DNA from: Bacteroidota bacterium
GTDB taxonomy: Bacteria > Bacteroidota > Bacteroidia > Bacteroidales > JACABE01
Direction of reading: 5' to 3'
Assembly (NCBI GenBank): GCA_013377005.1
Contig: JACABE010000004.1
Span: 1 to 64,000, forward strand
Length of the DNA: 64,000 nt
Shown here: positions 6,777-22,262 of the stretch, piece by piece
Layout: every line of letters starts with the position of its first letter
How positions within the stretch are numbered: the stretch's first letter is position 1
The notes under the pieces: model-generated
What the model was told of the DNA's origin: nothing
The model's input: only the letters and a program-made list of their open reading frames with translations
Databases searched by the model: none
Program-made: the position numbers and the translations under genes

Positions 6777-9700
6777 TTACTTAATGATGAGCTTCTTAAC
6801 GGTATCGGTATTTTTATTAGAAATTTTAACTAAATAAATGCCTTTTTCAACATCAGATAAATTTACATAGTTAATTTGTCTGTTAGTAGTAGCAAGGTAT
6901 ATCTCTTGTCCTAACAAATTATGAATCGTTATAACATTGGTTTCGTTATTATTATTATTTAATTTAATTACAACCTCGCCATTTGAAGGGTTAGGATATA
7001 TTTTAAAGACTTGTTCACTGCTTTCATCAATTCCAGTTGAAATATCAATTTTAACATCATCCACAAAAGTTATCCATTGAGTAACATCACTGTACGAATA
7101 AAATCCAAAAGTATAGTTACCAGTAGTAGGAGGCGTTATTTTTTTAGTATATTGAACATAAGCAGGAATGCGCAAAAATTCATTTTTAAATATAGTTCCC
7201 GAAGTCATCGCAGCCGAATCGGCAGCAGTTCCCCAATACACAGCTAATTTCTCTGAAGTAGTGTCACCATTTTCAACATAAATAGGAGCCTTATACCAGA
7301 AACTGAAATCATAAGCAGTTCCACCCGTTAAATGTACCGGAGGAGTAAACAACCAATCATTGTTTGAACCTAACATACTAAACATAATGTTCATAGCTTT
7401 TTGACCTGTATGAGCATTGTCAGGATAAGTAGCATTATTGGTAATTATATCCCAATAAGAAGATTGCATTCCACCGTTTTCGATACTCCATCCCAAAGGA
7501 AAATCAGCATTATTTGAAGTTGGTGTAACACTTTCAAAACCTTCAGTCCATGGCAATGATGTAATCGTAGGATCGGCCATAGTTGTAAAACTCCAAACAG
7601 AACAACTTACTGCATCACCCGTAGCATTGTAAGGCGTAACTTTCCAATAATAAGTGGTATTATACGCAAGAGCAGTTGTGATAGTATAAGAAGTTTGATT
7701 TCCTAAATCCACATTATTGATAATATTTGTAGGAGGATTATTGCTACCAACGCTCAAACGATATCCTGTTGGATTACCACTTGTTGGAGTCCATTTTAAA
7801 ATAGGTTTTGCAACTGCATTGATACTACTATTTAAGGGAGCAATCACAGCAGCAGGGCTTGGCACTGTAGCAACACTTCCTTGCCACGAAACATCATCTA
7901 ACCATATACTTTTGCTTGAGCTATTTTGTCCATGTTTGAATGCAATATATGGTTTGGTATTACTTGTATTAAAAGCCATTGTATACTGTACCATCGTATC
8001 GGCAAGTATAAAAGTTTGAACCGGCACAAACGAAGCTCCATCGTAAGGATTATCCATTAAGCCAACAATTAATTGTACGGTATTCGTGGTTCCTATTGTT
8101 TTCGATGCCCAAAACTTTAAAGAATCATTGGCAAAATTAGTAAGACCAGGAGTAATTAACATTAAAGGAGAAATAGTATCGGTATTGTTATAAAACTTAA
8201 CAACATTTGGAACAGAATGAGCATCATACGTAGAATTCATTACCTTAATATCATTTACTGTTTGATATGGATCTTTGCTTTTTAATTTATTCCAATGTGC
8301 CGGAATTGAGTTAACTGGAGTACTTTCAAATGTTTCAAAAAGATTTGGCAATAAAGCTAAAACATTTCCTGATAAAGCAATTGTATTATTACCTGTACCA
8401 TTGCTGTTAATAGTTAAATTTTCATTATAGGTACCCACAGTAGTAGCTGTAAAAACAACAGTAGTAGTATCTGAAGCACCGGGTAATATAGTTCCTGTGT
8501 AAGCACAACTAAATGGAGCAGCCACAGTAACACCTGATACTACTAAGTTAGAAGTTCCGATATTACCAATTGCTATTCTCATTTTCGTAGTTCCATTCAC
8601 ATATAATTCATTGAAGTTAAGAGCGGTTACATTCAAAGTCATAGATGCACCTGTTGGAATTGCTTCCACTTTAATATCATCTAAATAGCATTCTTTTAAA
8701 CTACTTGTAGCACCTCTTTTATAACGCCATTGGAATTTTACATTATTGCCTGCATAGCCAGTAAGATTTTGGAAACGTTGAACATAAGCCGGCATAGCAG
8801 AAGTTGGTGATAAAACATCCAATACAGTCCAACTAGTACCGCCGTTGGTTGATACTTCAAAGAAAGTAGTATCTGTACCTGAAACGGCTGTACATTTCCA
8901 CCAATAAGAAATACGATAATTTGCAGGAAGATTAAATCTTGGTGTAGTTATTGCTGATATAGTAGTAATGGTAGTAGGACTTGCAAAAGCAGCATTAGCT
9001 CCTGAATTAGTAGTAGTTGTTGTATGCCAAATTGCATTAGCTCCTGTTGTAGGATATGCCCAATCGGTAAATGAACCATACCAACCAGGATAAAATACTG
9101 TAGAGTCTTCAAACCCTTGATTGTATGGAAAAGAAGCGATTATTAATTCTGTTGTAAATTTCCATAAAGGAGAATTTTCGGTTTGAGCACCGTTTTTAGC
9201 AACAACTCTCCAAAAGTATTTTGTTTTAGAAGTTAATAAATTAGGAAGTGGATAATTATAAGTTCCAGCAGCAGCAACTGTCGCATTGCTTACAACTTTT
9301 ACAGCAGCATTTAAGTTTAAAACATTTAAAGAATCGGTTCCAAAATACAAATCATAGGTTGTAGTATTAGCACCTAAATTGAATGATAATGCATTGCTTG
9401 CTGAAGCCTTATCTTGATTATCAGAAGGTATTGGAGTGTTAGGCGTAACTGGTCCTGTACTGGCATAGTAAAAACGAATATTTGGCAAAGCACTTGGATA
9501 AGGATTTAAGTATCCTGTACTTGTTGGAAATGAAACATCGCTACCACTTGCTTTATTATTGCCGATAATTGATGTGGTTGCAGCAAAATTACCATAAGGA
9601 GCTGTACCATATCTATTTTCGTAATGAACAATTAAATTATCTGTTCCATTGTAAGCGAAAGGAGTTGATAAAACTATTTCACTCCAACCATTTGTAAAAG

Positions 9701-10058
9701 TTATTGGACCATCATAAACTAAAGTATATCCGGTTGAAGTAGGATTTTCATAACTTGCATCAGCAAAAACAGACAAAGTTGTGTGTTTTAAATAAATCTT
9801 TTGACTGGTAAATGTTTTTGGAGATGCATCAGTATAATTAAATGCAATTTTAGTAATACTTTTTGCAGCACCAATGGTTGCTTGAGTATGCAACATGCTA
9901 CACCATGCATATTTCCAGCCCCCGTAAGGTGGATATTGCGATGATACAGTCCCCGTTCCGATTTCCACATAACTCTGAGCATTAACGCCCGTAATCATGC
10001 AACAGAGTAAAAATGCTAACGCAATACTTTTGCGTAATAATTTAAATTTTGAAAACAT
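6777..10058 (-). CDS. Secreted T9SS type A protein with adhesin-like domains
   Basis: This is a 1093-residue exported protein. The signal peptide (about 1-27) ends in GVNA-QSY. The body consists of beta-rich modules: two cleaved-adhesin/choice-of-anchor-J-type regions (PYNQGFEDSTVFYPGW near 310 and LPWTEGFESVTP near 840, each ending in a DDIKV or DDVKI strand), FN3-like fibre segments (KTKYFWRVVAKNG, NTTYYWKVTPYN), and an abnormal-spindle-like beta domain (about 475-565). The last 85 residues (IYPNPSNGEVVIKL ... IHNLLGQEIY ... GIYLVKI ... KKLIIK) are a standard type A sorting tail, removed during export. No protease or glycosidase active site was recognised. Adhesion or matrix binding is inferred from architecture only. 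Confidence 0.9.
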   Translation of the reverse strand: MFSKFKLLRKSIALAFLLCCMITGVNAQSYVEIGTGTVSSQYPPYGGWKYAWCSMLHTQATIGAAKSITKIAFNYTDASPKTFTSQKIYLKHTTLSVFADASYENPTSTGYTLVYDGPITFTNGWSEIVLSTPFAYNGTDNLIVHYENRYGTAPYGNFAATTSIIGNNKASGSDVSFPTSTGYLNPYPSALPNIRFYYASTGPVTPNTPIPSDNQDKASASNALSFNLGANTTTYDLYFGTDSLNVLNLNAAVKVVSNATVAAAGTYNYPLPNLLTSKTKYFWRVVAKNGAQTENSPLWKFTTELIIASFPYNQGFEDSTVFYPGWYGSFTDWAYPTTGANAIWHTTTTTNSGANAAFASPTTITTISAITTPRFNLPANYRISYWWKCTAVSGTDTTFFEVSTNGGTSWTVLDVLSPTSAMPAYVQRFQNLTGYAGNNVKFQWRYKRGATSSLKECYLDDIKVEAIPTGASMTLNVTALNFNELYVNGTTKMRIAIGNIGTSNLVVSGVTVAAPFSCAYTGTILPGASDTTTVVFTATTVGTYNENLTINSNGTGNNTIALSGNVLALLPNLFETFESTPVNSIPAHWNKLKSKDPYQTVNDIKVMNSTYDAHSVPNVVKFYNNTDTISPLMLITPGLTNFANDSLKFWASKTIGTTNTVQLIVGLMDNPYDGASFVPVQTFILADTMVQYTMAFNTSNTKPYIAFKHGQNSSSKSIWLDDVSWQGSVATVPSPAAVIAPLNSSINAVAKPILKWTPTSGNPTGYRLSVGSNNPPTNIINNVDLGNQTSYTITTALAYNTTYYWKVTPYNATGDAVSCSVWSFTTMADPTITSLPWTEGFESVTPTSNNADFPLGWSIENGGMQSSYWDIITNNATYPDNAHTGQKAMNIMFSMLGSNNDWLFTPPVHLTGGTAYDFSFWYKAPIYVENGDTTSEKLAVYWGTAADSAAMTSGTIFKNEFLRIPAYVQYTKKITPPTTGNYTFGFYSYSDVTQWITFVDDVKIDISTGIDESSEQVFKIYPNPSNGEVVIKLNNNNNETNVITIHNLLGQEIYLATTNRQINYVNLSDVEKGIYLVKISNKNTDTVKKLIIK

Positions 10059-10390
10059 AGATTAATTATTTTTGATTGTTTATTATTTTATTAATAAGCT
10101 GCAATAAATACACTTATTCTTTCATGATTAATATGCAAAATTGCTACAATAAGAGATTAAGAACAACTTATAGGCGTTCGAATACGTGAATTCAAACAGA
10201 TTAGTTCAAAAAAAATAGAAAATTTTGATCATATTCGTTTTAATCATAGCACTTTCAATTAAATATAGTCACATATCATTCATTTGTAAAAAATACATCC
10301 GTTAACTTTTTATTATTTATAGCAATTTCATTTTTACCTACATTCATAATAAAAATACTTATAATTTTGAAAACCCAAAGAGAAATATAA
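10059..10390. other. Divergent intergenic region
   Basis: This gap of about 332 bp holds TAATTTTG (10362-10369), a -7 type element for the plus-strand EamA gene. It also holds an imperfect dyad at 10176-10197 that could be an operator or chance. No clear promoter was found for the minus-strand T9SS gene, and no ORF. Confidence 0.45.
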
Positions 10391-15545: not shown

Positions 15546-18134
15546 TTATCGTAATAAAGTAACACTTCCATGCAGTTGTCGAATATTTTCGCCTTTAAGG
15601 CGAAGCTCATAAACATCGCATACATAATAATAAACACCTTCGCTGCAATCGTTTTGCGAATTTTGTTCTTTTCCGTTCCAATTGATATCGGGATTGGAAG
15701 TTTCAAACACTTTCCGTCCCCAGCGATTAAAAATTTTAATATCTATTTTTTCAACACCCTGATAAGGCAAATAAGGTTTAAACAAATCATTAACACCATC
15801 GCCATTGGGTGTAAATACATTGGGTAAATGATACAAAGAACAGGTATCAATATCAATGCAAACCAAATTGCTCAGGATTCCAATATTATTGTTTGAATCA
15901 ATAGCATTGATAGCATAACATCCTGCAATAGAAGCAATATTTGCGTGCACATAACTCTTGATTGCAGGATTATTTATGGTTTGAAGTACAGATAAACTCC
16001 CATTAAGTGTAGGAGAATACCAAATATTATACTTTACTATATCGTAATCGCATGAATCAGTGGTAAGCCAATCCAAGGTATTGGCAGGAATACGGCAATC
16101 GGACGAAACCCATAATTGTGGCGGGCAAGGTGGTTCCAAGTCAATAGGAATACCACAAACCTGCTGCGAAAGATTGATGATGGGGTTAATTATATTGCTA
16201 ATGCTATAATTGCCGATAGATTTTATATAGTAACAATATTCTATTCCATTGACAAGGTTTTTGTCGATATAATTTGTTGTTGTGGAAATTCCAATTGAAT
16301 CGAATACTGAAGTGACAGCATTCTTTTTGTAGATAACATAGTAATTATTTATCCAGGGAACATTAAAGTTCCAGCTTAATTTCATTTTACGATCAGCAGG
16401 TGTAAGCGTAAGAAATACCGAAGAAGCCACATGGGTAGAACCTACTTTAAAACGATTTCCAACTTGATCATTATAAAAATCAATACGGTAACTATATGGA
16501 AATCCAGTAGTATTTATTCCATTATCTGCATAAATGGTATCATTAATACTAGCTAATGAATCTATCAATGTAAAATTATTCCCGTTGAAATCAGCAGAAC
16601 GATAAATCAAATATTTATAGGGTCCCGGCACCTGAACAGTGTCCAATTCTTTGGGACTGGACCAGGCAACAGTATCCGCACCATTGATCGTATGGGTATG
16701 CGTAATGGTAATATTTGTAATGATAGGAACATCACGTTTGAGTGCGGCACAAGCATTTATTGACGCATAACTTTCGGCACCATCGGGGTAATAAGCTATT
16801 ACAATATAACTGTAATCAATGCCATGCAGCAAACCACTCCCATTGTTGTTATCCAGATATGTGGTATCATTGATATTCGTTATTACTGCAATTTGTGTAT
16901 AGCCCGTATAAGCAGGAACGCCTGTTTCGCAATTGCCATGAATGAATGTAAAGCATTCATTTTTACGATATATCTTATAACCAACAGCATTGGTACAATA
17001 TGTTTTATTCCATAAAAGCTTAATGGCATTTCCTAAAGTAGTAGCCGTAAGATTTTGGGGTGCAGGACCTACTACTTTCAAAAACCGATTCCGATAGGCA
17101 GTAAGCATAATAGGAGCTCCATTGTCCAGCGCCTTAAAGGTTACCTGATACGGTTGTTTGCGAACATGTTCACATTGGGTTTCCCAGTAAAATAGGTTAT
17201 TAACTTGCGACGAAGCCGAAGTTGTATTAAAAATAGCAGGACTATTGCTCAAAATCAAAGGAACGCCTGTGGCTGATAAAGTTATTACATTTCCGTCAAT
17301 ATCCGAAGCATGAACATTAAAAGCCAGGGTATCTCCGGCCTGTACACATGTATCTGGCATAGGGTCAATAACGGGTGGATGATTGTTGCATGATGCAATA
17401 ATAATCTGCATATCACGGGTAATATATCCTATTCTAACCCCATTGCGCCATTCTTCAATTAAAATAGCAACATTGTATTCGCCTTGCATGCTAGGACTAT
17501 CCCAAATCAAATCGCCTGTTACCGGATTTATTGTGAAAGATGTGCTTGCTTGCGGAAAGGTGAAACCGGGTATATCGAGCCCTTGTGCACCTCTGCATTT
17601 TACCAATTTATAAGACAAACTATCGCCATCCGGATCATAAGCCCCAGGATTGTGAACAAAAAGAGAACCTACACAACCCATATCCAACGGTGGATTGAGC
17701 AATTGCGGCGAGTTGTTTTTAGGATTAATAAACGGACTGATCACCAACATGGTTTCCACAAAAATAGGTACGTTTACCGAATTAGGAATATTGATAACTC
17801 CATTGTTTCGGTTTGGATCTTCCATGCTTATCTTGTAAGTGCCGGAGCCGGGGTAGGTATGGGTTGTAACATATTCATTTCGGGTTATATCGCCGGCCAA
17901 ATAAACTTTCAATGTTCGTGCTACCTGATCGGAAGTACCATCACCCCATTTAATTTCCAACTGAGGCCTATCGGCAGGACTGGGCGTAAAGGTATAAGTA
18001 ACTAATTTAATTTCGTATTGAAAAGAAGTGTTTGAAATACGACGATAGGTAATTTCTGCAGCCCTCTCGTGCGTGGCAAAAGCCTGCACTAGGAAGGAAA
18101 ATAAAAAGGCAAAAATTAAAAATGTTTTTTTCAC
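15546..18134 (-). CDS. Secreted T9SS type B (CHU_C) protein
   Basis: This is an 862-residue exported protein with a GTG start (18132-18134) and a clear signal peptide (MKKTFLIFAFLFSFLVQAFA-THERAAE). The THERAAEITYRRI opening is common among large Bacteroidota surface proteins. Beta modules follow: a PKD/cadherin-like region with DPDGDSLSYKLV (about 165-180) and several FN3-like modules (about 355-720). The last 90 or so residues (LPNVFTPNGDGVNDLFKPY, IFNRWGRKVFETS, DCSEGVYYYVCDVYE) form the CHU_C sorting domain for type B T9SS export. No enzymatic motif is visible. A -7 type element TAATTTTG (minus strand) lies at 18171-18178. ribE follows 20 bp downstream. Confidence 0.9.
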   Translation of the reverse strand: MKKTFLIFAFLFSFLVQAFATHERAAEITYRRISNTSFQYEIKLVTYTFTPSPADRPQLEIKWGDGTSDQVARTLKVYLAGDITRNEYVTTHTYPGSGTYKISMEDPNRNNGVINIPNSVNVPIFVETMLVISPFINPKNNSPQLLNPPLDMGCVGSLFVHNPGAYDPDGDSLSYKLVKCRGAQGLDIPGFTFPQASTSFTINPVTGDLIWDSPSMQGEYNVAILIEEWRNGVRIGYITRDMQIIIASCNNHPPVIDPMPDTCVQAGDTLAFNVHASDIDGNVITLSATGVPLILSNSPAIFNTTSASSQVNNLFYWETQCEHVRKQPYQVTFKALDNGAPIMLTAYRNRFLKVVGPAPQNLTATTLGNAIKLLWNKTYCTNAVGYKIYRKNECFTFIHGNCETGVPAYTGYTQIAVITNINDTTYLDNNNGSGLLHGIDYSYIVIAYYPDGAESYASINACAALKRDVPIITNITITHTHTINGADTVAWSSPKELDTVQVPGPYKYLIYRSADFNGNNFTLIDSLASINDTIYADNGINTTGFPYSYRIDFYNDQVGNRFKVGSTHVASSVFLTLTPADRKMKLSWNFNVPWINNYYVIYKKNAVTSVFDSIGISTTTNYIDKNLVNGIEYCYYIKSIGNYSISNIINPIINLSQQVCGIPIDLEPPCPPQLWVSSDCRIPANTLDWLTTDSCDYDIVKYNIWYSPTLNGSLSVLQTINNPAIKSYVHANIASIAGCYAINAIDSNNNIGILSNLVCIDIDTCSLYHLPNVFTPNGDGVNDLFKPYLPYQGVEKIDIKIFNRWGRKVFETSNPDINWNGKEQNSQNDCSEGVYYYVCDVYELRLKGENIRQLHGSVTLLR

Positions 18135-18527
18135 TATTCCGAAATTACTATGTATATAACAATGAGTTCACAAAATTATTATTAATTGCTCAAAGTTTGC
18201 TCTTTTTATTTAATAATTTCAGATTTATTTTTTGCGTAAGAATTCTTGATAGCTTATGGTTAATTGAGCCAAGGGGGACTAAGTATTCGTCGGGTTTTAA
18301 AGACAGCTGATAAAGTATATAAAGTTAAAAAAGTGGTTTCGCATTGTGGGAGCCACTTTTTTTGATGGGATAAATTTAATTGTAATTGATTAATTAACTG
18401 TTGCGACTTTTTGCAGTAGTGGACTAAATTCAAATTCACTTTCATCGCACACAAAAGTTATATAATTTTAGTGAACTTTCTAAATTCATCACATCGCTAT
18501 AATGCCAAACCATTGTATCAAAATGGG
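18135..18527. other. Intergenic region downstream of rloB
   Basis: This 393-bp gap holds a -7 type element for the T9SS gene (18171-18178) and a hairpin terminator (18327-18362). A 64-codon minus-strand reading frame (18260-18454) crosses the hairpin, has no recognisable domain, and is treated as non-coding. Confidence 0.5.
18327..18362 (-). terminator. Hairpin terminator downstream of rloAB
   Basis: Arms AAAAAAGTGG (18327-18336) and CCACTTTTTT (18353-18362) enclose a 16-nt loop, with T/A tracts outside. It lies about 165 bp beyond the rloB stop and could end the rloAB transcript. Confidence 0.6.
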
Positions 18528-19238
18528 CTATTCTGGTGTAAATGAATAATATATAATTAATTCACGAAGTCTCTTAATAAGAATATGAACTGTAGTGCTA
18601 GGATTTGCATCAATAGGAGGTGTTTCATTATGGCTTTTTAATAAATCTTGGGCTCGTTGTATCGCTTTTTCTTCATTTCCAATTTCAGCAATAATATCAA
18701 CAACATTAGTATTACCATGTTCATATTCAAAATCTTTATATTTTACACTTTCTTTTATTGTGTTATTGATATTGTTGTAAATTTCTATTCTTGGAATAGG
18801 TCTTTCAACAGGTACGTTTGTTAAATGAAGTAATAGCCATAATTCAAAAACCTCATTACTATATGCAACTTTATGTTTGAGCTCTTGAGCTTTTTTAAAT
18901 GCATTCTTAAATCTTTCAGTATTTCCAAAGCTTTTTTCGGCATCATCTTTGTCAAATACAGTCCACACTTCATCGACAGATTTATTTGATTCTTCAGCTA
19001 ATTTATTTTTTTCAATTAAAGATTGCTCAACAACCCCCAATGAACTCATTCCAGTGCCTACAGCTCTTAGAAATACTGTTTCTTCAGGAAATTTATTAAT
19101 AAATCTTTCAAAGTAATATGGTTCAGTTTTTTTATCCTCACACACAATTAGGAATAGATGTGGATATTTTCTCCATCTAACAGGTCTGGTATCTTTGTCT
19201 TTTAAAGACTTTTTACTAACTACTCCTCTTTTTGCCAT
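18528..19238 (-). CDS. rloB: RloB-family (AbiLii-like) Toprim-type defence protein
   Basis: This 236-residue protein matches the RloB family. LIVCEDKKTEPYYFERF (Glu34) corresponds to the usual IVCEG-TE-YF motif, VWTVFDKDD (Asp96, Asp98, Asp99) to the acidic metal-binding strand, and SNEVFELWLLLHL (Glu132, His138) to the C-terminal signature. Together these suggest a Toprim-like metal-dependent nuclease fold. The family is the effector partner of an AAA ATPase in AbiL/RloAB abortive-infection systems. The start overlaps the end of the ATPase gene by 19 bp, so the pair is translated from one mRNA. All key acidic residues are intact. The nuclease target is unknown. Confidence 0.88.
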   Translation of the reverse strand: MAKRGVVSKKSLKDKDTRPVRWRKYPHLFLIVCEDKKTEPYYFERFINKFPEETVFLRAVGTGMSSLGVVEQSLIEKNKLAEESNKSVDEVWTVFDKDDAEKSFGNTERFKNAFKKAQELKHKVAYSNEVFELWLLLHLTNVPVERPIPRIEIYNNINNTIKESVKYKDFEYEHGNTNVVDIIAEIGNEEKAIQRAQDLLKSHNETPPIDANPSTTVHILIKRLRELIIYYSFTPE

Positions 19239-20560
19239 TGTGTATTTCTTAAAAATGTTTGAAATCCACCCAAAGCCGGAATTGCACCATATCTACCTTC
19301 AAAATATCTTTTTTCTTTATCTGAGTCAGGTCGTTCCTTTTCAGGCTTTAATTCGCCATTCTTTTCTTCGAAATAAATGAAATCAGATAAAGAATAAATT
19401 TCAGTACTTTCACATTTATTCTTTTCCGCAAAACATATTTGGTCTCTCCTTAATTTTGAATAACTTAGAAGATTTGTGTCATGTGTTGCAAAAATTAGTT
19501 GCGCATTATTCGGATTACTATCTTTATTTAGAAATGCTTCAATAGTATTCAATGTCATTATTGGATGTAATTTTGCTTCAATTTCATCAATTATCAATAC
19601 TCCTCCGTTAGCAAGTGCCCATAATATAGGTCCGCTTAATTGTAATGCTTTTTTTGCTCCAGAAGATTCTCTATCTTCCCACTTCCATGTTTGAGTCCGA
19701 TTTGTTGGTAAATTATTATTATCATACATAATATGTTCTGCAAAAACAGTATATGTTTGTTTTCCATCCAATGATTTTGCTAATTTTTCTTTCATACTCA
19801 TTGGCATGTCAGATGGCAATTCTGAAATCTCAAAATTTTTGGTTGTAATATCCATATTTGAAATACCTAGATTAAGAGATTTTAGATACTCACGTATTTT
19901 TTCTTTGTAGTCTTCTTTTTCCCAAAGCTCAACAGTTTGTATCTCCTCCATATCAGTATTTAATCCATCAATCATACTGAAGCGACTAAACCAATTAATA
20001 ATATCTTTAGCCTCTTCAATATTTAGCATATCGCAAGTTGAAAGAAATAGAGCATTATCCCTCGTTGCTTCAATAGCAGCATCAATTATTTTTTTTGTTC
20101 CGTTAAATCCAGAACTAACTTCAATAGTATCTTTTTCTCGTTCAAACAACACCACTTCCCTTCCAATGTTTTTTCTAAACAACCATTCTTTTTCTATTAG
20201 AGATTCATTAAACTCAAATCCGTATCTATAACGGTACTCTCCTATAATGAAAGAGATTTCAAAAGTTGTTGGCCTTTCACAAAATTCATCTCGAAGTAAA
20301 AATGGGTCATATGGTAATTTTGTTGTAGAGGAGGCTCGTGCTGACATATGAACCATCTTATCTAACAGACTCATAGATTTAAGTATGTTGGACTTTCCAC
20401 CACTATTTGAACCATATAATGATAAAGCATTTAAAGCACGGTATTTGCCTTTCTCAATAATATTCTCCATATAGTCTTTTTGCTTTGATGCAGGAATTAA
20501 ACTTATTATTTGTTCCTCAGCAATAGACCTATAATTTGACACTTTAAATTCTATCAACAT
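19220..20560 (-). CDS. rloA: RloA-family (AbiLi-like) AAA/ABC-type ATPase
   Basis: This 446-residue SMC/ABC-like ATPase of the AAA_15 type opens with MLIEFKVSNYRSI, typical of this class. Walker A is GSNSGGKS (50-57). The signature-like segment is SSGAKKALQLSGPILWAL, Walker B is VLIIDEIEAKLHP, and the switch histidine is in LIFATHDTNLLSYSKL. A variable middle region (about 150-300) probably senses the invader or holds the partner. In characterised RloAB/AbiL and PARIS-like systems such ATPases hold a Toprim nuclease until phage triggers release; applying that here is inference. A promoter candidate lies at 20583-20615. The gene follows a minisatellite region. Confidence 0.88.
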   Translation of the reverse strand: MLIEFKVSNYRSIAEEQIISLIPASKQKDYMENIIEKGKYRALNALSLYGSNSGGKSNILKSMSLLDKMVHMSARASSTTKLPYDPFLLRDEFCERPTTFEISFIIGEYRYRYGFEFNESLIEKEWLFRKNIGREVVLFEREKDTIEVSSGFNGTKKIIDAAIEATRDNALFLSTCDMLNIEEAKDIINWFSRFSMIDGLNTDMEEIQTVELWEKEDYKEKIREYLKSLNLGISNMDITTKNFEISELPSDMPMSMKEKLAKSLDGKQTYTVFAEHIMYDNNNLPTNRTQTWKWEDRESSGAKKALQLSGPILWALANGGVLIIDEIEAKLHPIMTLNTIEAFLNKDSNPNNAQLIFATHDTNLLSYSKLRRDQICFAEKNKCESTEIYSLSDFIYFEEKNGELKPEKERPDSDKEKRYFEGRYGAIPALGGFQTFLRNTQWQKEE

Positions 20561-20582
20561 GATCTTTTTTGTTTATTTTCTG

Positions 20583-20615
20583 CAAATATAATATAGTTCA
20601 ATGGATTATTTGCAA
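20583..20615 (-). promoter_or_regulatory. Promoter candidate for rloAB
   Basis: On the minus strand, TTG (20613-20615) is followed after 22 bp by TATATTTG (20583-20590). The spacing is at the long end for the Bacteroidota consensus. It is 22 bp upstream of the rloA start. Confidence 0.45.
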
Positions 20616-20888
20616 TGAAAAATAACTTTTTTACTTGTTTTTGCTAATAATTAACATAGTTGGCTCTTTCTATACCCTTGTTGCCAATTTGTATATACAT
20701 CTTACAAAATCAACCTTTATCTTCTTCATGTTGTGTGATGACAAATGCCATACTTTTCCACCCCGACAAATATACAATAATTTAATTCACTTCAATATTT
20801 TTTAACAAAAAACCCAGAGTAAAAATAGCCTTTGCTAAGGCTGGCAGCGTTTATGTGCTGTTGGGTACATTTCTTTACAAATCAACTA

Positions 20889-21119
20889 CCTTAAGCTTCC
20901 AAAAACCTTCCTTAAGCTCCCAAAAGTTATCCGTAACCTTCCAAAAGTCTTCCCTAAGCTTCCAAAAACCTTGGTCTTTCATCCAAAAGTTATGGTCTAC
21001 CTTCCAAAAGTTATGGTCTTTCTTCCAAAAGTCATGAACTACCTTCCAAAAGATTTGGTCTACCCTCTAAAAGTCATGGTCTTTCTTCCAAAAGTCTTAG
21101 TCTATCCTCCAGAAGTATT
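20889..21119. repeat. 21-bp minisatellite, 11 units
   Basis: Eleven consecutive units of exactly 21 bp (231 bp in all) share the core TCCAAAAG followed by a variable 3-5 nt. Units 1-4 start CC(T/G/C)TAA and units 5-11 mostly start GGTCT, so there are two sub-families. Units 5-8 alternate CTTTC and CTACC, hinting at 42-bp duplications. The last unit (21099-21119) is the most diverged. The period is a multiple of three, which keeps frames open by chance. In the minus-strand transcript the array would lie in the mqnC 3' region. Confidence 0.92.
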
Positions 21120-21173
21120 CAAGACGCTCTCATCGGTCTTCATAATTAACCATTAACCATTAATAATTAATAA

Positions 21174-22262
21174 TTATCCCACAAACTCAAAGCGTTGATT
21201 TCGTCTTTGAGGTTCAAAACCAGCTTCAGTAATGGCTCTTTGTATGCCAACGGCATCAAACTGATGGTCGGCACCAGCCACAGAAACCACATTTTCCTCA
21301 ATCATAATCGAACCAAAATCATTGGCACCACCATGCAAACAAATCTGGGCGGTTTGTTTCCCTACGGTCAACCAGGATGCCTGAATATTTGGAATATTCG
21401 GCAACATTATACGACTAATGGCAATCATGCGAATGTATTCATCAGCAGTTACCTTGTTCCGAATGCCATGTTGTTTCAGCAGTACCGTATCTTTATCCTG
21501 AAAAGGCCAGGGTATAAAGGAAAGAAATCCGGGTGCATCGCTTGGCTTTTCATGCTGCACATCCCTGATAAAAATTAAATGTTGCAGCCGTTCTTCAAGC
21601 GTTTCGATATGCCCCAACATCATAGTGGCAGAAGTTACGAGTTTCATTTTATGGGCTACACGCATTACATCCAACCATTCTGCGACGTTGCATTTGTTTT
21701 TAGAAATAATGGAACGTACTCTATCGGAAAGAATTTCGGCTCCGGCTCCCGGCAAACTGTCTAATCCGGCTTCAATCAATGCTTGCAATGTGGCTTCATA
21801 AGTAATATTTTCCATCTTCGAAATATGCACAATTTCGGGTGGTCCTAAGGCATGAAGTTTTAAATTTGGATAATGATTTTTTAGTGTTTTAAATAAATCA
21901 GTATAAAATTGCAAGCCCAATTTCGGGTGCATGCCACCTTGCAGCAACAATTGATCACCACCCAGTTGCAACATTTCTTCAATCTTGCATTTATATTCAT
22001 CAATAGCTGTAATATACGCTTCTTTCGAGTTGACCGAACGATAAAAATTACAAAACTGACAACCCGAATTGCACACATTGGTATAGTTTACATTGCGGTC
22101 GATAATCCAACTCACGTTGGGATGCGGATGCAATTGAAATCGGATATTATTTGCAATTGCCATCAGTTCGGGCAAGGATAATTCATAGTACAAATGCAGC
22201 CCTTCTTCCAATGTAAGGAATTTCAGATCGAAAGCTTTATCGATAACTTGCTTGGTATTCAT
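21174..22262 (-). CDS. mqnC: Cyclic dehypoxanthinyl futalosine synthase (radical SAM)
   Basis: This radical SAM enzyme of the futalosine menaquinone pathway cyclises dehypoxanthine futalosine. The cluster motif is CNSGCQFC (Cys64, Cys68, Cys71 counted from MNTKQV), preceded by WIIDRNVNYTNVC, which is MqnC-like rather than MqnE-like. Further signatures are GGDQLLLQGG, GPPEIVHI, SLPGAGAEILSDRVR, FLSFIPWPFQ, SWLTVGKQTAQICLHGGANDFGS and MIEENVVSVAG. The start at 22262 gives 362 residues, the usual size. An upstream in-frame ATG (22343) would add 27 lysine-rich residues not typical of the family. It is divergent from pepA. Other mqn genes are not in this window. Confidence 0.92.
   Translation of the reverse strand: MNTKQVIDKAFDLKFLTLEEGLHLYYELSLPELMAIANNIRFQLHPHPNVSWIIDRNVNYTNVCNSGCQFCNFYRSVNSKEAYITAIDEYKCKIEEMLQLGGDQLLLQGGMHPKLGLQFYTDLFKTLKNHYPNLKLHALGPPEIVHISKMENITYEATLQALIEAGLDSLPGAGAEILSDRVRSIISKNKCNVAEWLDVMRVAHKMKLVTSATMMLGHIETLEERLQHLIFIRDVQHEKPSDAPGFLSFIPWPFQDKDTVLLKQHGIRNKVTADEYIRMIAISRIMLPNIPNIQASWLTVGKQTAQICLHGGANDFGSIMIEENVVSVAGADHQFDAVGIQRAITEAGFEPQRRNQRFEFVG

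Follow-up and report, generated by a model that had tools for sequence, protein, structure and literature searches.

A 21-bp tandem array as a possible helically phased flank of an acquired defence cassette in a Bacteroidota genome

The window, a stretch of 64,000 nucleotides from a Bacteroidota genome, carries an array of eleven 21-bp units between mqnC and a gene pair resembling rloAB. A placing in Bacteroidota is also suggested by a type IX sorting domain and by the type of promoter. Our best explanation, to which we give a probability of about 0.45, is that the array is non-coding DNA, that each of its units spans a fixed two turns of the helix, and that the array borders an acquired cassette on the outer side. 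If unrelated arrays have the length of the unit in common and not its sequence, the minisatellites of this lineage are not just slippage debris, and something measures two turns of DNA. The finding of one framework around three gene pairs also shows a way in which small defence operons may pass from one site to another.

Structure of the array

The features of the region are as follows.

15546-18134, minus strand: gene for a CHU_C-domain (type IX sorting) protein, adjoining mqnC in the related genomes G001 to G003
18304-18402, no strand assigned: far end of the cassette, with TATAAAGT repeats and a terminator-like hairpin; 86% identical to locus C20 over about 100 bp, with a shorter match to locus C8
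18528-19238, minus strand: rloB-like gene (PF13707, RloB, 3e-36; PADLOC AbiLii, 9.9e-25)
19220-20560, minus strand: gene for an rloA-like AAA ATPase (AAA_21, 4.3e-25; PADLOC AbiLi, 2.4e-83)
20686-20894, minus strand: leader, 80% to C20 and partly shared with C8
20767-20795, minus strand: Bacteroidota-type promoter-like sequence TTG-N18-TATATTTG, facing rloA and away from the array; activity predicted
20826-20843, no strand assigned: small inverted repeat AGCCTTTGCTAAGGCT in the leader, read off the sequence
20889-21119, no strand assigned: 11-unit 21-bp array; inner units 1-4 of CCTTAA type, outer units 5-11 of GGTCT type
21120-21173, no strand assigned: outer tail, CAAGACGCTC and then AT-rich DNA, reaching the mqnC stop codon
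21174-22343, minus strand: mqnC, the outer neighbour

The array occupies 231 bp, corresponding to eleven units of 21 bp with zero gaps as counted in the 92-contig draft assembly, and a core of CCAAAAG or CCAAAA type occurs in eleven copies, one every 21 bp. The identity at a lag of 21 was 0.73; in 2000 mononucleotide shuffles, no lag between 5 and 47 exceeded 0.44. TRF reported two parts, one of 4.0 copies (20889-20972) and one of 6.9 copies (20972-21116), which meet where the sub-family changes. The gap-free series of eleven units and the switch after unit 4, both described in an earlier sequence-only reading of this DNA, are thus confirmed. The alternation of CTTTC and CTACC noted there was found in units 5 to 8, but the GGTCT starts do not extend to unit 8 (GAACT) or unit 11 (AGTCT). 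The array was rightly placed between the mqnC stop codon and the rloA promoter, lying 55 bp past the former and 329 bp from the rloA start.

Serial mini-hairpins in minus-strand RNA had also been proposed, based on a small dyad in each unit. The dyad is present as letters (CTT..AAG), but the folding of the minus-strand RNA of the whole array was not markedly better than that of shuffles (z -1.05). Nothing special was observed for the plus-strand RNA (z -0.17) or for the plus-strand single-stranded DNA (z -1.45) of the whole array. The dyad symmetry of the units was not above shuffles in most arrays, and no Rfam match was detected in the window at gathering scores.

The unit family in the same genome and in its relatives

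A search for further arrays with the same core, recommended by the sequence-only reading, was performed on the whole genome (G000; 3.69 Mb, 92 contigs), and the unit family was detected at three loci, C34 (the locus of the window), C20 and C8 (E up to 0.001; 7 matches in three places, backed by a pattern search). At all three loci, CCTTAA-type units are located at the leader side and GGTCT-type units beyond. Units with CAAGACGC form the outer end of the array in C34 and C20, the variant in the C34 outer tail being also the one that terminates the C20 array, and are located in the inner part in C8, where the array includes a run of N. Relatives were compared as one genome per species. In G003, the same unit family is present at two loci, one between the genes for a sorting-domain protein and a protein with a sub-threshold thioredoxin match, the other between a 247-aa gene and an amidohydrolase gene.

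Altogether 73 units were collected from six array segments (C34, C20, two of C8 and two of G003). Among these, CCAAAA (positions 1-6), T at position 11 and C at position 19 are nearly fixed while positions 12-18 vary. Against the consensus of their own array, 299 of the 1533 positions differ (about 20% divergence). The 21-bp register is unbroken within every segment, with 0 indels in the 73 units.

It is highly improbable, and largely refuted, that the array codes for a protein of heptapeptide repeats in an LPKVMVY-like frame on the plus strand. This frame is free of stops in the array of the window and in the two arrays of G003, but is interrupted by 3 stops in C20 and by 6 in the C8 segments taken together, and none of the reading frames stays open throughout the family. 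Codons can account neither for the stops nor for the periods of 41 and 43 bp in other arrays, which are not multiples of 3.

Arrays that have the CCAAAA core but differ in the rest of the unit are located in G004 and G014 near ordinary genes, those for pseudouridine synthase, a TPR protein, amine oxidase, SecA, an acetokinase-family protein and an FtsW/RodA-type protein. The orientation of the arrays relative to the neighbouring genes varies between genomes, which argues against an RNA element. The G004:C256 array contains a single 20-bp unit. On G014:C219 (L063:1100-1540), about 20 units hold the 21-bp register though the unit sequence shifts several times. An origin of the array or leader from phages, plasmids or viral contigs was also considered and dropped, because the phage and plasmid sets gave zero matches for the leader plus array and the viral contigs zero matches for a unit pattern and a leader pattern.

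A shared framework around three gene pairs

At the three loci of G000, the array lies outside the shared leader, and the promoter-like sequence, which resembles the Bacteroidota promoter consensus, points to a different gene pair at each. The cargo at C34 is the gene for the rloA-like AAA ATPase followed by the RloB gene, in the arrangement of RloAB/AbiL, and protection against phages is predicted. That at C20 is PD-T4-2 A and B, adjacent on L055 (PADLOC 9.5e-162 and 1.2e-55) in the arrangement of that system. The cargo at C8 codes for proteins of 281 aa and 285 aa without assigned family, the second with a sub-cut-off Pfam match only; this pair is a candidate undescribed defence or accessory pair. 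The C8 genes (L056:8560-9405 and 9435-10292) gave no PADLOC match; the 281-aa protein has a signal-peptide-like start, and a RhuM-like gene (PADLOC PDC-S05) follows the pair.

The 25 bp of the leader at the array side (20870-20894) are identical at C34, C20 and C8, carry two mismatches in G003:C625, and are absent, at up to 3 mismatches, from G001, G002, G004 and G014. The leader was also searched for over 393 genomes, 2 candidates per genome being scored. At the opposite side, an end with TATAAAGT repeats, common to the three loci, stands behind the second cargo gene, and at C34 and C20 a terminator-like hairpin comes next. The end motif, at up to 3 mismatches, had no matches in G001 to G004, and C20 and C8 were its only sites within G000; the C34 copy, with a 2-nt difference in length, was recovered by BLAST. 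The link of the array to the defence pair, on which the sequence-only reading had remarked, is thus structural in G000, as array, leader and far end are shared by three loci. No integrase or transposase was found among the cassette genes, and no recombinase or array-binding protein was identified.

The location of the array upstream of the promoter-like sequence at C34, C20 and C8 is what would be seen if the units were binding sites controlling the promoter of the defence genes, the unit number tuning expression. This regulatory role is quite unlikely, because the arrays of G003, G004 and G014 do not precede a leader of the C34 type, and because the 7 other matches of the leader promoter in G000 are all without the C34 array family. 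The leader promoter itself was rejected as a 'defence promoter', since only 2 of these 7 matches precede PADLOC genes (Septu ptuAB and PDC-S18). Several accessory-gene loci of this genus resemble one another in the promoter region and in a portion of the 5' UTR around GGTAAAGGGTGATTTTGTCAG, namely the C34 and C20 leaders, L213:3579-3701, L219:143-268 and L221:4933-5023.

The site behind mqnC in related genomes

In three genomes of the same genus, G001, G002 and G003, the gene next after mqnC is that for the CHU_C protein (79, 74 and 73% identical, respectively), and both rloAB and the C34 array are missing. The gap between the two genes measures about 0.4 kb in G001, where it contains no separate ORF of 60 aa, and about 70 bp in G003; the G002 gap contains an ORF of 183 aa on the opposite strand (L239:2696-3247). 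In G004, the contig ends 0.8 kb past mqnC, with a 41-bp array in between (L240:2742-2975). The counterpart of the G002 and G004 gaps in the window is 18134-21174. The difference in content between the G002 ORF, the G004 array and the rloAB cassette indicates a recurrent insertion site that accepts different inserts. From the absence of the cassette in three congeners, it follows that array, leader, genes and end were gained here, or lost several times. Taken together with the framework shared by three loci, the empty site suggests that the array flanks, on the outer side, a cassette that was acquired and that swaps its cargo. The empty sites of the congeners have diverged too far to place the borders to the base, and a target duplication was not identified. 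The two neighbour genes of C20 are not found together in the relatives, so that the empty site behind mqnC is the only one shown.

Unit lengths of non-coding minisatellites

Tandem repeats were surveyed by TRF with a minimum score of 60, a minimum of 2.5 copies and periods from 10 to 100, using our own ORF rules for gene calls and setting apart the arrays within longer ORFs. The G000 sample, 800 kb in 40 coordinate-chosen stretches outside the three known arrays (about a quarter of the genome), contained 13 non-coding arrays with periods of 14, 18, 21 (three arrays), 22, 41, 42 (five arrays) and 87, while the coding arrays in the same sample had periods of 12, 15, 21, 24 (two arrays), 27 and 39. 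Non-coding periods were 16, 21 (three), 41 (three), 42 (four), 63 and 84 in G004 (111 kb), and 19, 21 (three) and 42 in G003 (122 kb). Contigs that had been chosen for their arrays (C186, C256 and C28 of G004; C94 and C625 of G003) were dropped before counting; the remaining contigs of these two genomes, picked by number or for promoter or protein matches, are small samples. The period was within 1 bp of 21, 42 or 84 in 19 of the 24 arrays counted (10/13 in G000, 2/3 in G003 and 7/8 in G004), and in 17 of 22 when C211 and C518 of G004, with an array known before sampling, were also left out.

In contrast, only 4 of 17 arrays in the comparison samples fell in these classes (Fisher p 0.001 against 19/24): 0/7 in G002 (same genus, 400 kb), 3/3 in G168 (all of 22 bp), 1/2 in G294 (83 bp), 0/4 at PD-T4-2 loci and 0/1 in G001. 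The binomial value against a flat spread of periods, 4e-13, is too strong, as short periods are the more frequent ones in any case. The 0/7 in G002 indicates that the 21/42 class is not genus-wide. At the loci of a contig scan, which had themselves been chosen for 21-bp CCAAAA arrays, the other non-coding repeats among the matches listed (at least 80) were of 21 bp in 6 of 11 cases, plus two of 42, at the 32 loci with Bacteroidota titles, and in 8 of 20 cases at the 48 other loci.

The 33 lineage arrays with 21/42/84-type periods, counted together with those on the contigs chosen for arrays, were grouped by BLAST (1e-4) into 28 sequence families, suggesting that the length of the unit and not its sequence is common to the non-coding arrays of the lineage. 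Lag profiles of 31 arrays showed peaks at 21, 41-43 or multiples, and a 21-bp echo of 0.50-0.62 is kept in three 42-bp arrays (L363, L392 and L404). As to position, the neighbours of the 32 arrays are tandem genes in 18 cases, convergent genes in 8 and divergent genes in 4; the other 2 arrays lie at contig edges. Among the tandem cases, 14 of 18 are nearer to the 3' end of the upstream gene than to the next start, two of them by less than 10 bp. The proposal of an mRNA-end element survives only as this positional tendency; the RNA folding and the varying orientation speak against it.

It is rather doubtful that the array is a neutral minisatellite, formed in intergenic DNA that tolerates it, by replication slippage or unequal recombination, and carried along with a spreading cassette, the 21 bp being without function. 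The sharp sub-family switch and the shared unit variants do resemble local amplification, and the arrays of other genomes adjoin unrelated ordinary genes and tend to avoid divergent intergenic regions. Free slippage, however, gives no cause for lengths of 21 and 41-43 bp in unrelated sequences and leaves unexplained that no indel occurs in 73 units at the divergence given above. A broader set of periods is in fact observed in G002.

Proposed helical phasing of the units

The DNA helix has 10.5 bp per turn, so that 21 bp equal two turns and 42 bp four. As coding and RNA structure are not indicated, and as free slippage should lead to widely spread periods like those of G002, the simplest reading left is helical phasing. 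A role at the level of DNA, in protein binding or phasing, is favoured by the 21- and 42-bp periods. The units may be kept in register because the array works as double-stranded DNA with all cores on one face of the helix. The array would then be a platform for a DNA-binding or architectural protein, a protein reading one helix face being the likeliest agent. Shared arrays of 0.2-0.6 kb would supply homology, which could help cassettes to move or to swap cargo. Going further, it is possible though doubtful that a length-measuring agent, either a protein polymerising along one helix face or an enzyme copying in 21-bp steps, makes or keeps the arrays, and that the arrays dock exchangeable defence cassettes.

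The lock is not exact, since several arrays are of 41 or 43 bp rather than 42, those of G168 are of 22 bp, and G004:C256 includes its one 20-bp unit. The variable position of the arrays, between tandem, convergent and divergent pairs, also counts against helical phasing as the best explanation. The role in cassettes is not general because arrays occur near other genes without a C34-type leader.

Comparison with known systems

The nearest described elements found are two of Porphyromonas gingivalis, BrickBuilt and PgRS/MITE464, which show two similar length classes. According to the available part of the source, BrickBuilt is a MITE with a 23-nt minisatellite, a leader and a tail, inverted-repeat ends, reported promoter activity and known empty sites, and PgRS/MITE464 has 41-nt tandem repeats and inverted-repeat ends (PMC4596501). 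BrickBuilt, as far as this part describes it, resembles the array in its tandem units, which lack spacers and combine a conserved portion with a variable one, the leader alongside, and its intergenic location in several copies per genome, the copies in G000 being at three intergenic loci. Here the leader is present at the three loci and in a short form in G003:C625, while the tail is shared only as the CAAGACGC unit of C34 and C20. The unit is 21 bp here in contrast to 23 nt, many unrelated families of the same length are found instead of one unit family, and no exchangeable defence gene pair is described in that part of the source. The 41-nt unit given there for PgRS falls in the 41-43 bp class, the likeness being by length only.

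These likenesses raise an alternative, in which the array would be the repeats of a non-autonomous MITE of the BrickBuilt kind with acquired cargo, on the ends of which a transposase acts. In agreement with this are the combination of leader, array and intergenic position in several copies, the empty site in congeners, the G003:C625 copy with a short leader lacking the cargo promoter, and the existence of 23-nt and 41-nt elements of such kind in P. gingivalis, as given in the same part of that source (PMC4596501). When the three elements were compared by BLAST with their own reverse complements, however, the matches were of 12-17 bp only and none convincingly paired the ends. With neither a target duplication nor a cassette transposase detected, we regard the MITE as unlikely. 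Hairpins with arms resembling AGCCTTTGCA and TGCAAAGGCT, at L216:6280-6330 (G000:C5) and L387:2112-2150 (G003:C94), recall the inverted ends of BrickBuilt and are probably terminators.

The cargo genes match the RloAB/AbiL and PD-T4-2 models (PADLOC labels; available part of PMC9519451). What differs here is that both pairs lie within one non-coding framework that includes a minisatellite, in cassettes in which no integrase was detected. As in CRISPR, tandem repeats have a leader on one side, but the units are contiguous without unique spacers, their 7-bp variable part is drawn from a small set, and no cas genes are among the cassette genes. In type III toxin-antitoxin systems (ToxIN-like), repeats are transcribed from an upstream promoter with the toxin gene behind. 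The arrangement here appears different, since the putative promoter separates the array from the genes and is directed at the latter. In the literature searched, no report of 21-bp quantised arrays or of minisatellite-flanked defence cassettes was found.

Association with defence genes elsewhere

Matches to PD-T4-2_A were obtained in 15 of 393 genomes of the order, at 18 loci. A general link between the C34-type array and PD-T4-2 was rejected because the array is present at only 1 of these 18 loci, the one in G000. At the PD-T4-2 locus L283 (G081), an unrelated AT-rich 21-bp repeat of 3.5 copies was detected at a lower score cut only and was lost at the stricter cut. A general link between arrays and defence neighbours was likewise rejected, as 1 of 10 genes near the G003, G004 and G014 arrays gave PADLOC matches, weak ones on the SecA C-terminus. 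With arrays elsewhere located beside ordinary genes, the link to defence belongs to the G000 cassette family, in which the C8 pair is only a candidate for defence.

Near the leader-promoter matches, 21/42-bp arrays were present in 4 of 6 stretches (8-12 kb), compared with 8 of 40 background stretches (20 kb), one of the 8 by a coding array, a weak difference (p 0.03). Arrays of 41-43 bp are located on both sides of the PDC-S18 defence-candidate pair (L213:1463-1795 and L213:3798-3925) and 0.24 kb behind Septu ptuAB (L214:8635-8897), all in G000.
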